Assembly: GCF_030162935.1 (NCBI RefSeq)
Contig: NZ_JASAUZ010000074.1
Location: 1 to 64,000, forward strand
From: Comamonas halotolerans
GTDB lineage: Bacteria > Pseudomonadota > Gammaproteobacteria > Burkholderiales > Burkholderiaceae_C
Direction: 5' to 3'
Length of the DNA stretch: 64,000 nt
Both the position numbers and the translations under genes were made by a program. The notes below the pieces were generated by a model. That model was not told the DNA's origin, searched no databases, and saw only the letters and a program-made list of their open reading frames with translations. Shown one piece after another: positions 1-32,878 of this stretch (positions are counted from its first letter, which is position 1; each line of letters begins with the position of its first letter).

Positions 1-91
1 GCTTCGCCTTGTCGTACGCCAGTACCGCCTGCGGCTTCGCGCCTCGTCTCAATCGCAAACCTTCGGTTTGCTGGGTAGTGTTAGCGGCTCA
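1..91 (-). repeat. Dispersed 123-bp repeat, copy 1 (cut by window start)
   Basis: This is the truncated minus-strand copy of an element found complete at 28919-29041 and 32495-32617. Read on the minus strand it starts with the same AGCCGCTAACAC end, then has a perfect hairpin of GCAAACC and GGTTTGC around a 3-base loop, then the shared GAGACGAGGCGCGAAGCC core. About 90 of 123 bases are inside the window. The end sits about 20 bp behind the stop codon of the beta-lyase gene, in the same orientation relative to the gene as the other two copies. It could be a miniature inverted-repeat element or a REP-like unit; function unknown. Confidence 0.85.
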
Positions 92-109: not shown

Positions 110-1351
110 TCATTCCACCCAGGGCTGAGCAAATGCCTTTGGCCAAGCTTGAGCCAGATCAGCCAGCAAATCTTGCACATCTTCCAAACCTACACAGAAA
201 CGCACCACCGTTCCTGCTTGCACTGCACCACGACCGCAAGCTCGCATGCTTTCAATCTCATAAGGCATCACCAGGCTCATTGGGCCACCCCAGCTGTAAC
301 CCAGCTTGAACAGTTGCAAACTGTCGCAGAAATTGTCAATGGCCCCTTGTTCAAACTGCGCATCAATGACGATGCTGAACAAGCCTGCAGCAGCGCCTTT
401 CCCTTGTTGGGATGTCCCGCACAATTGCTGCCAATTCACATGCCCTGGCGCACCATCAAATGCGGGGTGCAGCAGTTGGACCACAGCTTTTTGCTTTTGC
501 AAAGCAGCGGCCAATACCCGCGCAGCTGCATCATGCGCGTGATAGCGCAATGCCACACTGGACAGTGAGCGCAACACCAGTTCTGCATCGTTGGCACCGA
601 TACCAATACCCAGACGCATATGGGTGAGCTTGATGCGCATGTGCAGTGCATTGTCGACCGTGATGATGCTTCCCATCAGTACGTCACCACCGCCGCTGGG
701 GTACTTGGTCAGCGCATGCGCTGAAACGTCGACACCCAAACTGCCGCCATCGGCCAATAAATCAAACGGCTGGAAAGCCAGACCTGCACCCCAGGTGTTG
801 TCAAGCACGGTGGTGATGCCACGTTCACGACAGGCTTGCACCAGCGCGATAAGGTCTGGAAACTCCATACTCACACTGCCGGGAGCCTCCAGCCAGACCA
901 GTTTTGTTGCTGGAGTGATCTTGGCTTGCAGGTCAGCCACATTCATCGGCTCATACCACTGGTGGCCAATGCCCCAGCGTGCCAACTCGTGCTCTGCAAA
1001 ATCCTTGTTAGGCCCATAAGCATTATCAGGAATCAGCACCTCGTCACCGGCAGACAACAAACCCAGCGCAACTGTGCTGATGGCACACAAACCGCTGGGC
1101 ACCAGCAGACATTGCTTGCCGCCTTCAAGGCTGCACAAGCGCTCTTCCAGTTGGTAAGTGGTGGGGGTGCCGTGCAGACCGTAAGTAAAGCCACTCTTGT
1201 CCAGCCAGCGGCGCGTACGCATGTCATGCACATTGTCAAAAATGACCGTTGAAGCCTTGTGCACTGCAGGCTGCGGCGCATTGAAAGCGGATGGGGCTTG
1301 GTAGCTGTGGTGCACCAAGTCAGTAGTGATGTGGCGTGCTTGATCCTTCAT
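110..1351 (-). CDS. metC: Cystathionine beta-lyase (PLP-dependent Cys/Met metabolism enzyme)
   Basis: A 413-residue enzyme of the Cys/Met metabolism PLP family, predicted cytosolic. It should cleave cystathionine to homocysteine, pyruvate and ammonia in methionine synthesis. The PLP lysine is K216 in SAHALTKYPSGG, and D184 in the LDNTWGAG segment is the usual partner of the pyridine nitrogen. The length is usual for the family. The gene stands alone: a terminator lies between it and the upstream lipoprotein gene on the same strand, and repeat copy 1 follows its stop codon. A related lyase or gamma-synthase activity cannot be excluded from sequence, but the overall pattern is MetC-like. Confidence 0.85.
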   Translation of the reverse strand: MKDQARHITTDLVHHSYQAPSAFNAPQPAVHKASTVIFDNVHDMRTRRWLDKSGFTYGLHGTPTTYQLEERLCSLEGGKQCLLVPSGLCAISTVALGLLSAGDEVLIPDNAYGPNKDFAEHELARWGIGHQWYEPMNVADLQAKITPATKLVWLEAPGSVSMEFPDLIALVQACRERGITTVLDNTWGAGLAFQPFDLLADGGSLGVDVSAHALTKYPSGGGDVLMGSIITVDNALHMRIKLTHMRLGIGIGANDAELVLRSLSSVALRYHAHDAAARVLAAALQKQKAVVQLLHPAFDGAPGHVNWQQLCGTSQQGKGAAAGLFSIVIDAQFEQGAIDNFCDSLQLFKLGYSWGGPMSLVMPYEIESMRACGRGAVQAGTVVRFCVGLEDVQDLLADLAQAWPKAFAQPWVE

Positions 1352-28002: not shown

Positions 28003-28896
28003 ATGGCGATTGATTACCACCATTTGAAGGGCCGCCATTTCGCACCGGTGCGCCAACAATACACGGCACGCGACAGCATGTTGTATGCGCTCAGCCTCGG
28101 GGTGGGCAACAACCCCCTAGACACAACCGCCCTGCCCTATGTCTATGAAGGCAGGGACGGAAACAGCTTGAAAACCGTGCCTTCCCAGGCTGTGGTGCTG
28201 GGTTACCCTGGTTTTTGGGCGCGTGAGCCTGACACCGGCATTGACTGGGTCAAGCTGTTGCACGGTGAGCAGCGCATGCGGCTGCACCAGCCGTTGCCCG
28301 CAGCCGCAGATGTGGTTGGCTACAACCAGATCACGCACCTGACGGACAAGGGAGATGGAAAAGGCGCCATCATGGTGACTGAACGCCGCCTGGAAACTGC
28401 CGACGGTCAACTGCTTGCCACGGTACAACAGGTCTCGTTCCTGCGCGGTGACGGTGGCTTCAGTGCCAACGGCGCACAACCATCAGATGCGCCACTTCCA
28501 CCACTACAGGCTGTGCCAGAAGATCGTGCGCCCGACTTTGTCGACACCCAGTCCATTCGACCAGAAGCCGCACTGCTGTACCGCCTCTGTGGCGACTACA
28601 ACCCTCTGCACGCAGACCCAGCCGTGGCACAAGCGGCCGGTTTCGAGCGCCCGATCCTGCATGGTCTGGCCAGCTACGGACTTGTCACCCTTGCACTGCT
28701 GCGCCAGTGTGCAGGTGGTGATGCGGCACGTTTTCGTGCGCTGGACATTCGTTTCACCTCTCCGGTATTTCCTGGTGAAACACTGGTCACAGAAATCTGG
28801 CATACGTCCGGCAATCCGAATCTGTATCAGCTCCGCGCGAGGGTACTGGAGCGCGACAAGATTGTGCTCAGCCATGGTCTCGCCGAACTGGCATAG
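28003..28896 (+). CDS. MaoC-type (R)-enoyl-CoA hydratase (hydratase 2)
   Basis: A 297-residue double-hotdog hydratase. The hydratase 2 motif with catalytic aspartate and histidine is seen as LCGDYNPLHADPAVAQAAGF, followed by PILHGLASYG. It should add water to a trans-2-enoyl-CoA to give the (3R)-hydroxyacyl-CoA. It follows the SDR gene by 18 bp and is the natural partner of that enzyme. Relatives serve in steroid side-chain and branched-chain acyl-CoA breakdown. Repeat copy 2 lies 22 bp behind its stop codon. Confidence 0.88.
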   Translation: MAIDYHHLKGRHFAPVRQQYTARDSMLYALSLGVGNNPLDTTALPYVYEGRDGNSLKTVPSQAVVLGYPGFWAREPDTGIDWVKLLHGEQRMRLHQPLPAAADVVGYNQITHLTDKGDGKGAIMVTERRLETADGQLLATVQQVSFLRGDGGFSANGAQPSDAPLPPLQAVPEDRAPDFVDTQSIRPEAALLYRLCGDYNPLHADPAVAQAAGFERPILHGLASYGLVTLALLRQCAGGDAARFRALDIRFTSPVFPGETLVTEIWHTSGNPNLYQLRARVLERDKIVLSHGLAELA

Positions 28897-28918
28897 CCCA
28901 CGGTCACAACCAACCTTT

Positions 28919-29041
28919 AGAGCCGCTAACCCCCCCCAGCAAACCGAAGGCTTGCGATTGAGACGAGGCGCGAAGCCACAGGCAGTACTGGCGTACGACA
29001 AGGCGAAGCAACGACGTATCAATGGTTGTGTTAGCGGGTCT
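28919..29041 (+). repeat. Dispersed 123-bp repeat, copy 2
   Basis: This copy is complete. The ends AGAGCCGCTAAC and GTTAGCGGGTCT are near-perfect inverted repeats. It differs from copy 3 at 11 of 123 positions by direct alignment. Inside are a GCAAACC/GGCTTGC hairpin with one mismatch and the conserved GAGACGAGGCGCGAAGCC block. It lies in the 267-bp gap between the MaoC and enoyl-CoA hydratase genes. No open frame longer than a few codons is supported in it and no target-site duplication is evident. Confidence 0.9.
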
Positions 29042-29163
29042 TAACAGAACCAGCCTGGCAGGTCGCGCATCAATGAATGCGTGCACTGCGCCACCTTGCC
29101 AAGGCAACCGCAGGCAGCACAGACACTGCCATTTTTTTTCATTTTGAGAAATTCGGGAGCCCT

Positions 29164-29961
29164 ATGAGCCAAGCCCCTGTGTTGACCCATATTGAAAACG
29201 GTGTGGGCACCATCACGCTCAACCGCCCGCAAGCACGCAATTCTCTGAGCCTGGAGATGCGTGATGGCTTGTCCAAAGCCGTGTTCCAGATGCGAGATGA
29301 CGAGCAAGTACATGCGGTGATCATTACCGGCGCTGGCGGTGCGTTTTGCTCAGGTGGCGACCTGCGCCTGATGATGGAAAGCACACTGGATAGCGTGGGC
29401 TACCGGGAGCGCATGCGCAAGCTGCACCAATGGTTCTCTGTGCTGGTGAATATGGAGAAACCCGTCATTGCAGCCGTTGACGGCGCCGCCTTTGGTGCGG
29501 GGTTAAGCCTTGCTCTGGCCGCAGATTTTGTGATTGCCACCCAAAGTGCCAAATTCTGCGCAGTGTTTGCGCGGATTGGCCTGATTCCCGATCTGGGTGC
29601 AATGCAGTTGCTGCCACGTATCGTGGGCTTGCAAAAAGCCAAAGAGCTGGTGTTTACAGCACGAACCGTGGCAGCCGATGAGGCCAAGCAATTAGGTATG
29701 GTCTACGACATTGTGGAAGATGCTGCCGCTTTGCAAACTGCCGCACAGACATTGGCCTCACGTTTCGGGGAGGCCTCCACGGCTGCCATCGGCATGGCCA
29801 AGAACATCATGAATCAGTCCTTCGAGCTCAATGCGCAAACCGCTGCCGAGCTGGAAGCTTATGCACAAGTGACCTGCCGCAACTCCGCCTACCACCAGGA
29901 TGCCCTCCAGCGCTTTCAAGCCAAGCAACCGCTGCGTTTTGACTGGGATCGGCAGACATGA
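29164..29961 (+). CDS. Enoyl-CoA hydratase/isomerase family protein (PaaG-like)
   Basis: A 265-residue crotonase-fold protein. The oxyanion-hole segments are AGGAFCSGGDLRL and AAVDGAAFGAGLSLALAAD. The segment around the second catalytic residue reads FARIGLIPDLGAMQLLP, with aspartate where classic hydratases have glutamate; this PD pattern is common in PaaG-type isomerases. It may be a hydratase or an isomerase acting on an enoyl-CoA. The ATG at 29164 matches the family start; the frame opens earlier at 29077. The CoA-transferase gene overlaps its stop as ATGA, so the two are translationally coupled. Confidence 0.88.
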   Translation: MSQAPVLTHIENGVGTITLNRPQARNSLSLEMRDGLSKAVFQMRDDEQVHAVIITGAGGAFCSGGDLRLMMESTLDSVGYRERMRKLHQWFSVLVNMEKPVIAAVDGAAFGAGLSLALAADFVIATQSAKFCAVFARIGLIPDLGAMQLLPRIVGLQKAKELVFTARTVAADEAKQLGMVYDIVEDAAALQTAAQTLASRFGEASTAAIGMAKNIMNQSFELNAQTAAELEAYAQVTCRNSAYHQDALQRFQAKQPLRFDWDRQT

Positions 29962-31247
29962 GCAACAGCGCGATTGCAAATCGCTTGCAAGCGCTGCTGC
30001 GTCCCAACGACACCATCTGGTGGGGACAGGCAACCGCCGAGCCACTGACACTCAGCCGGGCACTGGTGGAGCATCGCCATCAACTTGGGCAAGGTGGCCG
30101 TCTACAAGTTTTTGTAGGGCTGGGCCTTTCAAACACCTTGCTTCCTGAGCATGCAGATGTGCTGGATTTTTTGGGCTATGCAGCCAGTGGGCCGCACCGC
30201 GCACTGGCCCAAGCGGGCGTGCTGGACATCATCCCCTCACACTACTCGCTGTTGCCCGTGCTGATTGCGCAAGGCCGCATTCCAGCAGATGTGGTGTTTG
30301 TGCAAGTATCGCCGCCTGATGCGCAAGGTCGCTATAGCCTGGGACAGGTGCGCGAATACATACCCGCAGCAATGGAGCGCGCCCGTGTCATCGTTGGCGA
30401 AGTGCATCCCGATGTTCCCTGGACCTTTGGGGGACCATATCTGAAAGCCAGCGATTTTGCTTTGCTAGTCGATTCCGAATGCGCCTTGCCTGGCATGGTG
30501 CGCTCAGAGCCCGGCGTGACAGAAAAATCTATTGCCTCGCATATTGCAGCCCTGATCGAAGATGGCAGCTGCATTCAGTTGGGCATAGGCAATCTCCCCG
30601 AAGCGGTGACTGCCGCGCTGCGCCACCATAAAGACCTGGGGCTGCACAGTGGTGCCATTGGCGACGGCATTGCGGATTTGGCCGATGCAGGCGCGCTCAA
30701 CAATGCTCGCAAGAACATCAATGTCGGCATGGGGACAGCAGGCGTGCTGATGGGTGGAGAGCGCCTGCGGCGCTGGGCCCATCAAAACCAGCAATTGCAG
30801 ATGTGCGATACGGGCTATACACACGCCCCCGAGATACTGTCAGGCCTGAACAAGTTTGTTGCCATCAACTCCGCCATCGAGGTTGACCTGACCGGCCAAA
30901 TCAATGCGGAAGTCGCGGGTGGTATCTATATGGGAGCCGTGGGCGGAGCCATGGATTTTCTGCGCGGAGCAGCACGCAGCAAGGGTGGACTGCCGATTGT
31001 GGCCCTGCCCTCCACGGCCAAAGCCCACAGCCGCATCGTGGCGCAGCTGGCAGGCCCGGTCAGCACCCCGCGTGCAGATGCAGGTCTGATCGTGACCGAA
31101 TACGGTGTGGCGGACTTGCGTGGCCAGCCTCTGTCCAAAAGGGTTCGCCGCATGATTGATATTGCGGCTCCCGAACACCGTGAATCTCTCGATCAGCAAG
31201 CCCACAACTTGCTGCGCCAATGCGGCGCGGCCTTTCATGCCCGCTGA
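29958..31247 (+). CDS. Acetyl-CoA hydrolase/CoA-transferase family protein
   Basis: A 429-residue protein of the acetyl-CoA hydrolase/4-hydroxybutyrate CoA-transferase family. The conserved segments ALIEDGSCIQLGIGNLPEA, FVAINSAIEVDLTGQINAE and ADAGLIVTEYGVADLRG are intact. It would move CoA between short acyl donors and the acid substrate, or hydrolyse a CoA ester. Its start overlaps the crotonase stop codon by 4 bp, and a thiolase gene follows after 39 bp, giving a tight three-gene block. The acid partner is unknown. Confidence 0.88.
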   Translation: MSNSAIANRLQALLRPNDTIWWGQATAEPLTLSRALVEHRHQLGQGGRLQVFVGLGLSNTLLPEHADVLDFLGYAASGPHRALAQAGVLDIIPSHYSLLPVLIAQGRIPADVVFVQVSPPDAQGRYSLGQVREYIPAAMERARVIVGEVHPDVPWTFGGPYLKASDFALLVDSECALPGMVRSEPGVTEKSIASHIAALIEDGSCIQLGIGNLPEAVTAALRHHKDLGLHSGAIGDGIADLADAGALNNARKNINVGMGTAGVLMGGERLRRWAHQNQQLQMCDTGYTHAPEILSGLNKFVAINSAIEVDLTGQINAEVAGGIYMGAVGGAMDFLRGAARSKGGLPIVALPSTAKAHSRIVAQLAGPVSTPRADAGLIVTEYGVADLRGQPLSKRVRRMIDIAAPEHRESLDQQAHNLLRQCGAAFHAR

Positions 31248-31286
31248 GTTTTTTGACATCTGAATTACAAACAACAGGAGTTTCCC

Positions 31287-32495
31287 ATGCGCCGAGCCGC
31301 TATTGTTTCACCGCTTCGCACCCCCGTTGGCACATTCGGAGGCAGTTTGCGCCCCGTCTCCGTTGAAGAACTGGCAGCAACCACAGTACGAGCTGTTGTA
31401 GAAAAAAGCGGCATTGATCCTGCTCGCATTGATGACGTGGTGATTGCCCAGTCTTATGCCAACAGTGAAACACCCTGTGTAGGGCGCTGGGCTGCATTGC
31501 AAGCCGGTCTGCCCGTGGAAGTGCCTGGCATGCAATTGGACCGCCGTTGTGGCGGAGGGCTGCAAGCCATTGCCACAGCGGCCATGATGGTGCAAAGCGG
31601 AGCTGCTGACGTGGTGATCGCAGGTGGCGTGGAAAGCATGAGCAACATCGAATACTACAGCCCTGACATGCGCTGGGGTGCTCGCTCAGGCAATGTACGC
31701 ATGTATGACCGTTTGGAGCGTGGACGTGAGCGTTCGCAACCTGTGGAACGCTTTGGCAAGATCTCCGGCATGATTGAAACTGCCGAAAACCTGGCCCGCG
31801 ACTACAACATCAGCCGTGATGAGGCCGATGCATTTGCTGTGCGCAGCCATCAGAGGGCTGCTGATGCCTGGGAAGCTGGCCGCTTCAATGCCGAAATCGT
31901 GCCTGTTTCAGTTCCGCAGCGCAAAGGAGACCCACTGCTGTTTAGCCGAGATGAAGGTTTTCGAGCAGGCACAAGCATGGAGAGCCTGGGCAAACTCCGC
32001 GTACTCATGCCGGGCGGTACGGTCACCGCTGGGAATGCCAGCCAGCAAAACGATGCTTCTGCTGCCTGCCTGATTGTGGCGGAAGACAAACTGGCAGAGC
32101 TGGGGCTGACGCCCATGGCGGCCATGGTGGGCTGGGCTGCAGCAGGGTGTGAGCCTTCGCACATGGGAATTGGTCCGGTCCCAGCCGTGAAAAAACTGCT
32201 GGCTCGCCTGAACCTGAGCCTCAACGACATGGATCTGGTGGAACTCAATGAGGCCTTCGCATGCCAGGTTCTGGCTGTTCTCAAGGGGTGGGAATGGAGC
32301 GACAGGGATGCCATTGAGCACAAACTGAACGTAAACGGCTCAGGCATTTCACTGGGTCACCCCATTGGTGCCACCGGTGTCCGCATATTGGCCACATTGC
32401 TGCACGAGCTTGAGCGCCGCAAGGGACGCTATGGGCTGGAAACCATGTGCATTGGTGGCGGCCAGGGCATTGCCGCCGTATTTGAACGCTACTAA
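31287..32495 (+). CDS. Thiolase (acetyl-CoA acyltransferase)
   Basis: A 402-residue degradative thiolase. The nucleophile is C88 in QLDRRCGGGLQA (most relatives have CASG or CGSG; here the serine is glycine). The active-site histidine is in SLGHPIGATG and the second cysteine in MCIGGGQG. It would cleave a 3-ketoacyl-CoA with CoA to give acetyl- or propionyl-CoA. AACAGGAG precedes the ATG. The last base of its stop codon is the first base of repeat copy 3. Confidence 0.92.
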   Translation: MRRAAIVSPLRTPVGTFGGSLRPVSVEELAATTVRAVVEKSGIDPARIDDVVIAQSYANSETPCVGRWAALQAGLPVEVPGMQLDRRCGGGLQAIATAAMMVQSGAADVVIAGGVESMSNIEYYSPDMRWGARSGNVRMYDRLERGRERSQPVERFGKISGMIETAENLARDYNISRDEADAFAVRSHQRAADAWEAGRFNAEIVPVSVPQRKGDPLLFSRDEGFRAGTSMESLGKLRVLMPGGTVTAGNASQQNDASAACLIVAEDKLAELGLTPMAAMVGWAAAGCEPSHMGIGPVPAVKKLLARLNLSLNDMDLVELNEAFACQVLAVLKGWEWSDRDAIEHKLNVNGSGISLGHPIGATGVRILATLLHELERRKGRYGLETMCIGGGQGIAAVFERY

Positions 32496-32617
32496 GAGCC
32501 GCTGACACTACCCAGCAAACCTAAGGTTTACGATTGAGACGAGGCGCGAAGCCGCAGGCAGTACTGTTGTACGACAAGGCGAAGCAACGACGTATCAATG
32601 GCTGTGTTAGCGGGTCT
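32495..32617 (+). repeat. Dispersed 123-bp repeat, copy 3
   Basis: This copy is complete and in the same orientation as copy 2. Its first base is also the last base of the thiolase stop codon TAA. The ends AGAGCCGCTGACAC and GTGTTAGCGGGTCT pair with few mismatches. It begins a 383-bp gap ahead of Bug receptor 3; the remaining 261 bp (32618-32878) show no supported gene, only the AAGGAG box of the receptor. Confidence 0.9.
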
Positions 32618-32878
32618 AAAGCGAGAAGATTGCTCACCTCTGCCTAGGCCTGACGCAAGCCTGTATGCCGCTGACCTGTCGAGAGTCAGTGGCTTTTGTT
32701 GCGCACATGCAGTGCAGCTCAAGGGTTATCACCCACTAACTTCGCACAAAGCCAGGGTTCTCAAAAAGCAGATTCCAACCGAACTCGTGTCACAGCACCA
32801 TTGTTTCTCGCATTGAAAAAAACGTTCTTGTGTTCGCACTTCCATGCCACGCAAGACATCAACTCAAGGAGACAAGCG

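Follow-up and report, generated by a model that had tools for sequence, protein, structure and literature searches.

The repeat and the genes around it

The window, that is, the whole 64,000-nucleotide stretch of Comamonas halotolerans DNA analysed here, contains three copies of a short repeat (A, B and C), which lie by the ends of a MaoC-like hydratase gene, a thiolase gene and a gene for an enzyme of Cys/Met metabolism. The features are the following.

1–90, minus strand: copy C, incomplete; flanking triplet TTT, not TNA
110–1351, minus strand: Cys/Met metabolism PLP-dependent enzyme gene, preceding copy C
28003–28896, plus strand: MaoC-like hydratase gene, preceding copy A
28917–28919, plus strand: left target duplication of copy A, TTA (read off the sequence; TNA duplication from 113 copies)
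28920–29040, plus strand: copy A, element proper, 121 bp, GAGCC...GGGTC (sequence, BLAST, fold)
28977–29003, plus strand: core of copy A, with one deviation from the pattern (register of copy B, read off the sequence)
29041–29043, plus strand: right target duplication of copy A, TTA (read off the sequence)
31287–32495, plus strand: thiolase gene, with copy B on its stop codon
32493–32495, plus strand: TAA, left target duplication of copy B and at once the thiolase stop codon
32496–32616, plus strand: copy B, element proper, 121 bp (sequence, BLAST, fold)
32517–32529, plus strand: side hairpin AAACC..GGTTT of copy B (fold)
32553–32579, plus strand: conserved core of copy B, CGCAGRCAGTRC-loop-GYACGRCAAGG, common to neisserial Correia elements
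32617–32619, plus strand: right target duplication of copy B, TAA (read off the sequence)

As the first-pass annotation had described, the two full copies (28919–29041 and 32495–32617) agree at 112 of 123 bases and a shortened third copy is present on the minus strand, placed here at 1–90; this copy was shortened by the assembly, because the window begins at the end of contig C74. The inverted ends are real, "near-perfect" being an overstatement for 12 matching positions out of 14 bp in both full copies, and the internal hairpin was recovered on folding, each full copy forming one long hairpin with a side arm. Compared with shuffled sequences, the fold of copy B stands out (z −2.7) and that of copy A does not (z −0.8). 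The gaps to the preceding stop codon also agree with the earlier description (22 bp for copy A and 19 bp for copy C), and the thiolase TAA shares one base with the 123-base repeat of copy B. No gene was called within the window copies by a codon-based gene finder, a simple scan detected no promoter-like or terminator-like sites inside either full copy, and the three matches to known RNA families were all at chance level (E 1.1 to 9.9, far under the gathering score) and none of them lay over the copies. In phages, the repeat was without match.

Target duplications, stop codons and recent spread

The occurrence of copies beyond the window, a point raised in the first pass, was borne out by 26 BLAST matches in the organism's own genome and by matches in 45 of 53 genomes of the genus. 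Our main sample consisted of 113 distinct copies (18 from the own genome, 93 from the same genus and 2 from two other genera); copies of one lineage are non-independent. The element proper measures 121 bp, GAGCC...GGGTC, and lies between 3-bp TNA duplications: identical TNA triplets flank 62 of the 113 copies (32 TTA, 29 TAA and 1 TCA), and 49 are without identical triplets. Where both triplets are TNA (70 copies), 62 agree in their middle base and in none are the middle bases complementary. Genome G343, in which the element ends are different, has the duplication at 20 of 25 copies (TTA 7, TCA 6, TGA 5, TAA 2), and among 128 stem-bearing copies at other loci, delimited with a crude automatic end finder, identical TNA triplets were present in only 23. 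Such 3-bp duplications are the mark of insertion; the 49 copies without identical triplets and the low count at the other loci weigh against it.

The triplets TAA and TGA are themselves stop codons, and TTA and TCA are stop codons on the opposite strand. Using genes called with our own codon-based finder, we found that 25 of the 61 perfect TAA or TTA duplications lie exactly on a stop codon, compared with 29 of 323 YTWAR sites (9%; p = 2e-11); over all 113 copies, 42 lie exactly on a stop and 53 within 3 bp, compared with 92 of 1091 non-coding TAA/TTA triplets. Stop codons were also found at 15 of the 25 copies in G343, and at the other loci convergent stops peak 36–37 bp past the core (37 of 152 copies). 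Together with the duplications, these counts give good support to the first-pass proposal of a non-autonomous mobile element that targets gene ends.

The stricter claim, that the repeat always sits directly behind a gene in one orientation, holds for the three window copies and fails beyond them: among the 18 copies of the own genome with both ends mapped, the upstream gene is co-directional in 10 and not in 8. A fixed 3'-end orientation was therefore rejected, as both orientations occur, and the "directly behind" placement arises because the duplicated TNA is often a stop codon. Flanking genes over the 113 copies were (−,−) in 39, (+,−) in 31, (+,+) in 28 and (−,+) in 8, with one side uncalled in 7; divergent intergenic regions are depleted of the element (8 of 103 versus 25 of 115). 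Random orientation had been named as grounds for abandoning the earlier idea, and orientation does vary; a bias nevertheless exists, opposite to the one described, in that stops favour the other end of the element by 103 to 36. Symmetric insertion would not be expected to produce such an asymmetry at a palindromic target, and it counts against the explanation that we consider best.

Genome G031 carries nine other copies that are 95–100% identical to the query copy at unrelated genomic places, which implies recent spread. One of its genes ends GAA-TAA with the element; in ten relatives, all without the element, the gene stops at the same codon with TGA, indicating that the stop position is native. 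At the locus of copy A, 15 congeners have no element. The claim of mobility gains from near-identical copies at unrelated places and from ten element-free relatives sharing a gene end; a base-exact empty site was not obtained, because intergenic sequence is too diverged between species.

Kinship of the core with Correia elements

When a window copy was compared by blastn with 72,556 PLSDB records, the only matches were to two gonococcal records, at 16 places (84.7% identity over positions 44–100, E = 1e-6). A profile built from the 113 copies matched, with nhmmer, the core of the textbook Correia element (CREE) L172 (E = 3e-10), a sequence that had been chosen by its core pattern; the published Correia repeat letters do match L172 (PMC5039591, PMC2911385). 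These alignments show homology between the core and that of the Correia element of Neisseria (CREE/NEMIS). Of 399 genomes belonging to the order, 46 contain the core pattern, with arms that are unlike one another and mostly self-complementary. The core was found in Comamonas, Acidovorax, Aquitalea, Vogesella, Cupriavidus, Undibacterium, Methylophilus and further records.

While the arms vary, the core retains its hairpin form, and its unpaired bases are conserved. Its helix covaries, with 68 double-changed cells compared with 28.3 (sd 4.6) in shuffles, a value reached in 0 of 500, for a longer helix taken from a structure that we specified; RNAalifold, given a 48-row alignment, returned no more of it than the 4-bp stem at the apex. 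Mispairs in the inner helix were G-T in 46 cases and A-C in 74, which gives no sign of a favoured RNA strand there; those in the outer stem (G-T 107, A-C 41) are dominated by shared ancestral mismatches.

CREE/NEMIS resemble the present element in being short and palindromic, with inverted ends, a target duplication, many copies and no encoded protein, and both are without a known mobilising enzyme (PMC5039591, PMC2649163, PMC2229807). Correia elements affect gene expression in gonococci and meningococci, their mobilisation being left undetermined in the same account (PMC2649163). The ends differ: instead of the 26-bp Correia inverted repeat (TATAG[CT]GGATTAA...), the ends here read GAGCSGCTAACAC, with only a resemblance between the ends GAGCSGCTAACA and TAGTGGATTAACA. 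Likewise, CREE duplicate TA, sometimes CA (PMC2649163), whereas the duplication here is TNA, 3 bp; CREE number about 100–250 copies per Neisseria genome (PMC5039591), more than the 26 matches seen here in the own genome, and are reported to lie mostly immediately upstream of genes (PMC10969869), the present element being placed at stop codons.

Among other repeats, compared by description only, BRE is also short and mostly intergenic, is known from Comamonadaceae, Bordetella and Azoarcus, and in some cases overlaps ORF ends by a few bases, but is 75–91 bp long in Bordetella and often tandem, unlike the present element (Hot et al. 2011, PMC3110155). ERIC (127 bp, enterobacteria; PMC2759123) shares an intergenic position, inverted ends and a target duplication with it (PMC2229807). 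BRE is a possible earlier description of part of the core. Our searches of the open literature turned up no account of the Correia core from any bacteria but Neisseria.

The ERIC target duplication is 2 bp, and Tourist/PIF-Harbinger and IS5-type MITEs have a 3-bp TWA/TNA duplication, as does the present element. By its duplication it would fit the IS5/IS1031-type MITEs; a hairpin core that is conserved while the ends change runs opposite to what is usual among MITEs.

Nature of the element and its wider reading

We consider the repeat to be a non-autonomous insertion element (MITE) of Correia kind, with a probability of about 0.86. It combines the terminal inverted repeats, target duplication, absence of a gene and high copy number of a MITE; ends common to a resident autonomous IS were not found in G028, G343 or G803. 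In these genomes 90, 79 and 25 end sites, respectively, were screened, and none formed an inward-facing pair at IS-sized spacing (0.5–3 kb) other than two neighbouring copies. Two IS-like pairs in G028 were explained by similar neighbouring copies, and the G343 pairs 1023246–1024115 and 2404931–2405840 were rejected as IS-sized or unpaired ends, being pairs of separate copies. An unrelated membrane-protein gene lies between the two copies of the former pair. The own genome has about eight end-like sites outside the listed copies, and the four inspected were degenerate or partial copies and one chance in-gene match; inspection by eye of the core-less 53-bp and 270-bp versions recognised no transposase remnant. 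An IS partner, if any, may be distant, lost or asymmetric.

The TNA duplications mark insertion, and a gene keeps its stop where the duplicated triplet supplies one. Under the MITE reading, the element, being non-coding, would be moved by an enzyme acting in trans, probably, to judge from the duplication alone, a DDE transposase with TNA preference, IS5/PIF-Harbinger-like. Insertions within genes and at promoters would be purged. In transcripts running beyond the stop, the hairpin would form part of the 3' UTR and could be acted on by RNase III, as has been reported for CREE. For its own spread the element probably requires the core, because this part persists where the ends differ.

The covarying core helix, the enrichment at stops with depletion in divergent regions, and the end asymmetry would also be consistent with the second possibility raised in the first pass, an RNA element domesticated at the 3' ends of mRNAs, with a hairpin kept behind genes for protection of the mRNA, termination of transcription or recruitment of RNase III. 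We regard this as unlikely: both orientations occur, exact duplications mark insertion, the sites are unconserved (15 congeners at copy A and ten relatives at the G031 site lack the element), promoter-like and terminator-like sites are missing from both full window copies, and the mispairs of the inner helix give no sign of a favoured RNA strand. Retention of a hairpin core with conserved unpaired bases while the arms change would suit a palindrome of the REP/BIME type, mobilised by a tyrosine transposase (RAYT/Y1) through recognition of the hairpin, an origin that appears very improbable here, as to our knowledge target duplications are not expected for that family and 3-bp ones are present. 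REPs are, moreover, palindromes of 20–40 bp (PMC3733652), shorter than the roughly 100–123 bp of this element.

Compatible with the insertion of a MITE, the excess at stops could be a by-product of losing in-gene insertions, the target triplet itself reading, by coincidence, as a stop on one of the two strands. We think this possible and rather doubtful, since the null was already restricted to non-coding TAA/TTA and YTWAR sites, of which 8–9% are stops, compared with 25 of 61 duplications; in-gene loss alone does not yield such an excess, to which loss elsewhere in intergenic regions (promoters) may add.

A broader reading, which we offer tentatively and hold to be rather unlikely, is a Correia-type superfamily, order-wide or at least betaproteobacterial, whose lasting part is the hairpin core and not the terminal repeats. 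A mobilising system, perhaps host-encoded, would recognise the core by its fold, as a hairpin of DNA (or RNA), and insert with polarity at stops, leaving the arms free to change provided that they pair. The Correia core in further genera gives an evolutionary series with different ends, and harmless laboratory species in which to seek the enzyme that mobilises the element and the part played by the core. Placement at stop codons lets a mobile element land on a gene harmlessly, with the duplicated triplet rebuilding the stop, and the bias in which end meets the stop is a testable feature of this element.

Distribution of the element and its copies

The two full copies and the truncated copy located by the first-pass annotation were confirmed on the window sequence, with the following limits for the 121-bp GAGCC...GGGTC repeat, together with one neighboring feature:

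28920-29040: full copy A
32496-32616: full copy B
1-90, minus strand: truncated copy C
29113-29130: terminator-like hairpin and T run in the gap separating copy A from an enoyl-CoA hydratase gene

The inverted ends pair at 12/14 positions in each of the two full copies, and copy C is incomplete because the first base of the window is the end of its contig (C74), where the assembly cut it. Our search of the whole genome (4.05 Mb, 74 contigs) yielded 26 matches, a figure that in some cases counts fragments of a single copy separately. Contig boundaries fall inside a copy at several places (C74:1, C19:1, the end of C18 and C26:2 among them), and therefore the element probably breaks this assembly and its copy number is probably undercounted. 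Among relatives, 45 of 53 genus genomes had a match at E <= 0.001, with at most 16 first-look candidates scored in each, such that copy numbers per genome are lower bounds. In one compared genome (G031) the query copy was 95-100% identical to nine others, and full-length profile matches among named contigs included Comamonas sp. B21-038 (L218) and Lampropedia aestuarii (L222).

Variant forms were also observed. Genome G028 carries core-less derivatives of about 53 bp that keep both ends and a side hairpin (L411:1001-1054, L412:1001-1054 and L416:1164-1217), two of the three with a perfect TTA duplication; these are either internal deletions or independently mobile. A genome of another genus in the same family, with different element ends (G343), contains a 270-bp version whose core is enlarged by additional sequence and whose duplication is TGA (L441:1250-1519). 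It also has a single membrane-protein gene flanked by two copies (L462:547-1416).

Kinship with Correia elements

The element is of a known kind, a Correia-type MITE, in a variant with different ends, a 3-bp TNA duplication, placement at stop codons and an order-wide range. A family-wide search, scoring two candidates per genome, found matches in 43/399 genomes and 24/141 genera, our own included, and beyond the genus these mostly covered query positions ~45-98. The core pattern occurred across the order in 46/399 genomes and 25/158 genera, with no control match among the matches listed, and in at least 111 stretches of named contigs, which among the matches listed included Neisseria gonorrhoeae DSM 9188, N. 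sicca, N. bergeri, Aquitalea, Vogesella, Cupriavidus, Undibacterium, Methylophilus and Dechloromonas. The N. gonorrhoeae locus (L172) starts and ends with the Correia repeat letters given in PMC5039591. A profile built from 113 copies alone found this locus at E=3e-10, a value flattered by selection since the core pattern had served to choose the searched loci, and matched no shuffled locus. An unselected blastn of a window copy against 72,556 PLSDB records matched only two gonococcal records, both of 2.17 Mb and each with 8 matching places (positions 44-100 at 84.7% identity, E=1e-6), and the core is thus, judged by sequence, a Correia core. Relative to the neisserial element, the Comamonas element has this core in common but differs in its ends and duplication length.

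A tandem Correia-type pair lies in a Neisseria MAG (L156: 6625-6652 and 6734-6761, 109 bp apart). The core was also matched in records labeled Clostridia MAG (L152), Streptococcus sp. 121 (L196), Avibacterium paragallinarum (L184) and Cardiobacteriaceae MAG (L143), through either transfer or contamination. The betaproteobacterial repeat element (BRE; PMC3110155) may be a part of the Correia-type superfamily that was observed earlier; searches of the open-access literature brought up no description of the Correia core from beyond Neisseria.

The arms tend to self-pair across lineages despite unlike sequences. Over 201 distinct contexts, all four Watson-Crick pairs occurred at several single positions of the core-adjacent helix, pairing was best in register 0 at 5/6 positions from -2 to -7, and the conserved-loop purines R1/R2 were A-G in 110, G-A in 61, G-G in 16 and A-A in 14. 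For 48 dissimilar sequences with 4-base loops, double-changed cells (68 versus 28.3, sd 4.6) and covariation score (0.215 versus 0.097) were each equaled in 0/500 shuffles, and the paired fraction was 77.9% in the named register versus at most 42% in slid registers. Two further counts were no higher than in shuffles: pairs showing double changes (79 of 500) and pair types (176 of 500). RNAalifold predicted only the apical stem on this alignment. Core letters are invariant there by construction of the search pattern; their conservation rests on the family-wide search, the 113-copy profile and the PLSDB blastn.

Target duplication and placement at stop codons

Both ends were mapped in 113 distinct copies (18 from our genome, 93 from other genus genomes and 2 from two other genera). 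Flanking triplets were identical in 64, of which 62 were TNA (TTA 32, TAA 29, TCA 1). Over all 113 copies, the preceding base was Y in 93 and the following base R in 88. Where TNA stood on both sides (70 copies), the two middle bases agreed in 62 and were complementary in 0, the opposite of expectation for a palindromic element end. In G343 (25 copies from 30 fetched loci; 26 rows, two being one copy), the two triplets agreed in 20/25, with each of the four TNA possibilities represented. At other loci, where ends were located by a simpler, arm-blind method, identical TNA was recovered in only 23 of 128 stem-bearing copies (terminal stem >=12/14; 167 core copies in all).

The stop codons TAA and TGA read as TTA and TCA from the opposite strand. 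With genes called by our own codon-based finder, the duplication fell exactly on a stop codon in 42/113 copies and within 3 bp of one in 53/113; the background was 92 of 1091 TAA/TTA triplets outside coding sequence at the same loci (8.4%). In the strictest set, 25/61 perfect TAA or TTA duplications lay on a stop versus 29/323 YTWAR sites (9.0%; p=2e-11, with copies treated as independent though not fully so). In G343 the figure was 15/25. At other loci (152 copies, including three from Comamonas or Lampropedia), core-to-convergent-stop distance peaked at 36-37 bp (37 copies). A G031 gene bearing the element ends GAA-TAA; in ten relatives lacking it the gene stops at the same codon, there TGA, and thus this stop position is native. 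Fifteen congeners lacked the element at the locus orthologous to 28919. Intergenic parts were too diverged to yield a base-exact empty site.

The earlier proposal that the element always lies directly behind a gene in one orientation did not hold over the 113 mapped copies. Stops were met about three times as often by the right (GGGTC) end as by the left (GAGCC) end, 103 versus 36 cases. These comprise 29 versus 13 in the genus set and 11 versus 4 in G343, both exact, and 63 versus 19 at other loci, counting stops 20-60 bp from the core. A palindromic target triplet predicts equal use of both ends; the bias has p=1e-8 pooled if copies are independent, 0.02 for the genus set alone and 0.12 for G343 alone. 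Divergent intergenic regions were poor in elements (8/103 versus 25/115).

Mobilization and potential effects on transcripts

TNA duplication is the rule for IS5/PIF-Harbinger-type DDE transposases, and from this duplication alone we infer a mobilizing enzyme of that type. At the number of end mismatches allowed, and with pairs of neighboring copies set aside, G028 (90 end sites), G343 (79) and G803 (25) yielded no inward-facing, IS-sized end pair. An enzyme supplied in trans would cut at TNA, insert the element and duplicate the triplet; the rebuilt triplet would preserve the stop, and surviving insertions would accumulate behind genes. The hairpin would then be part of transcripts running past the stop. 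RNase III is reported to process Correia transcripts (PMC10969869, PMC2229807), and by analogy similar processing of read-through transcripts carrying the Comamonas element is possible.
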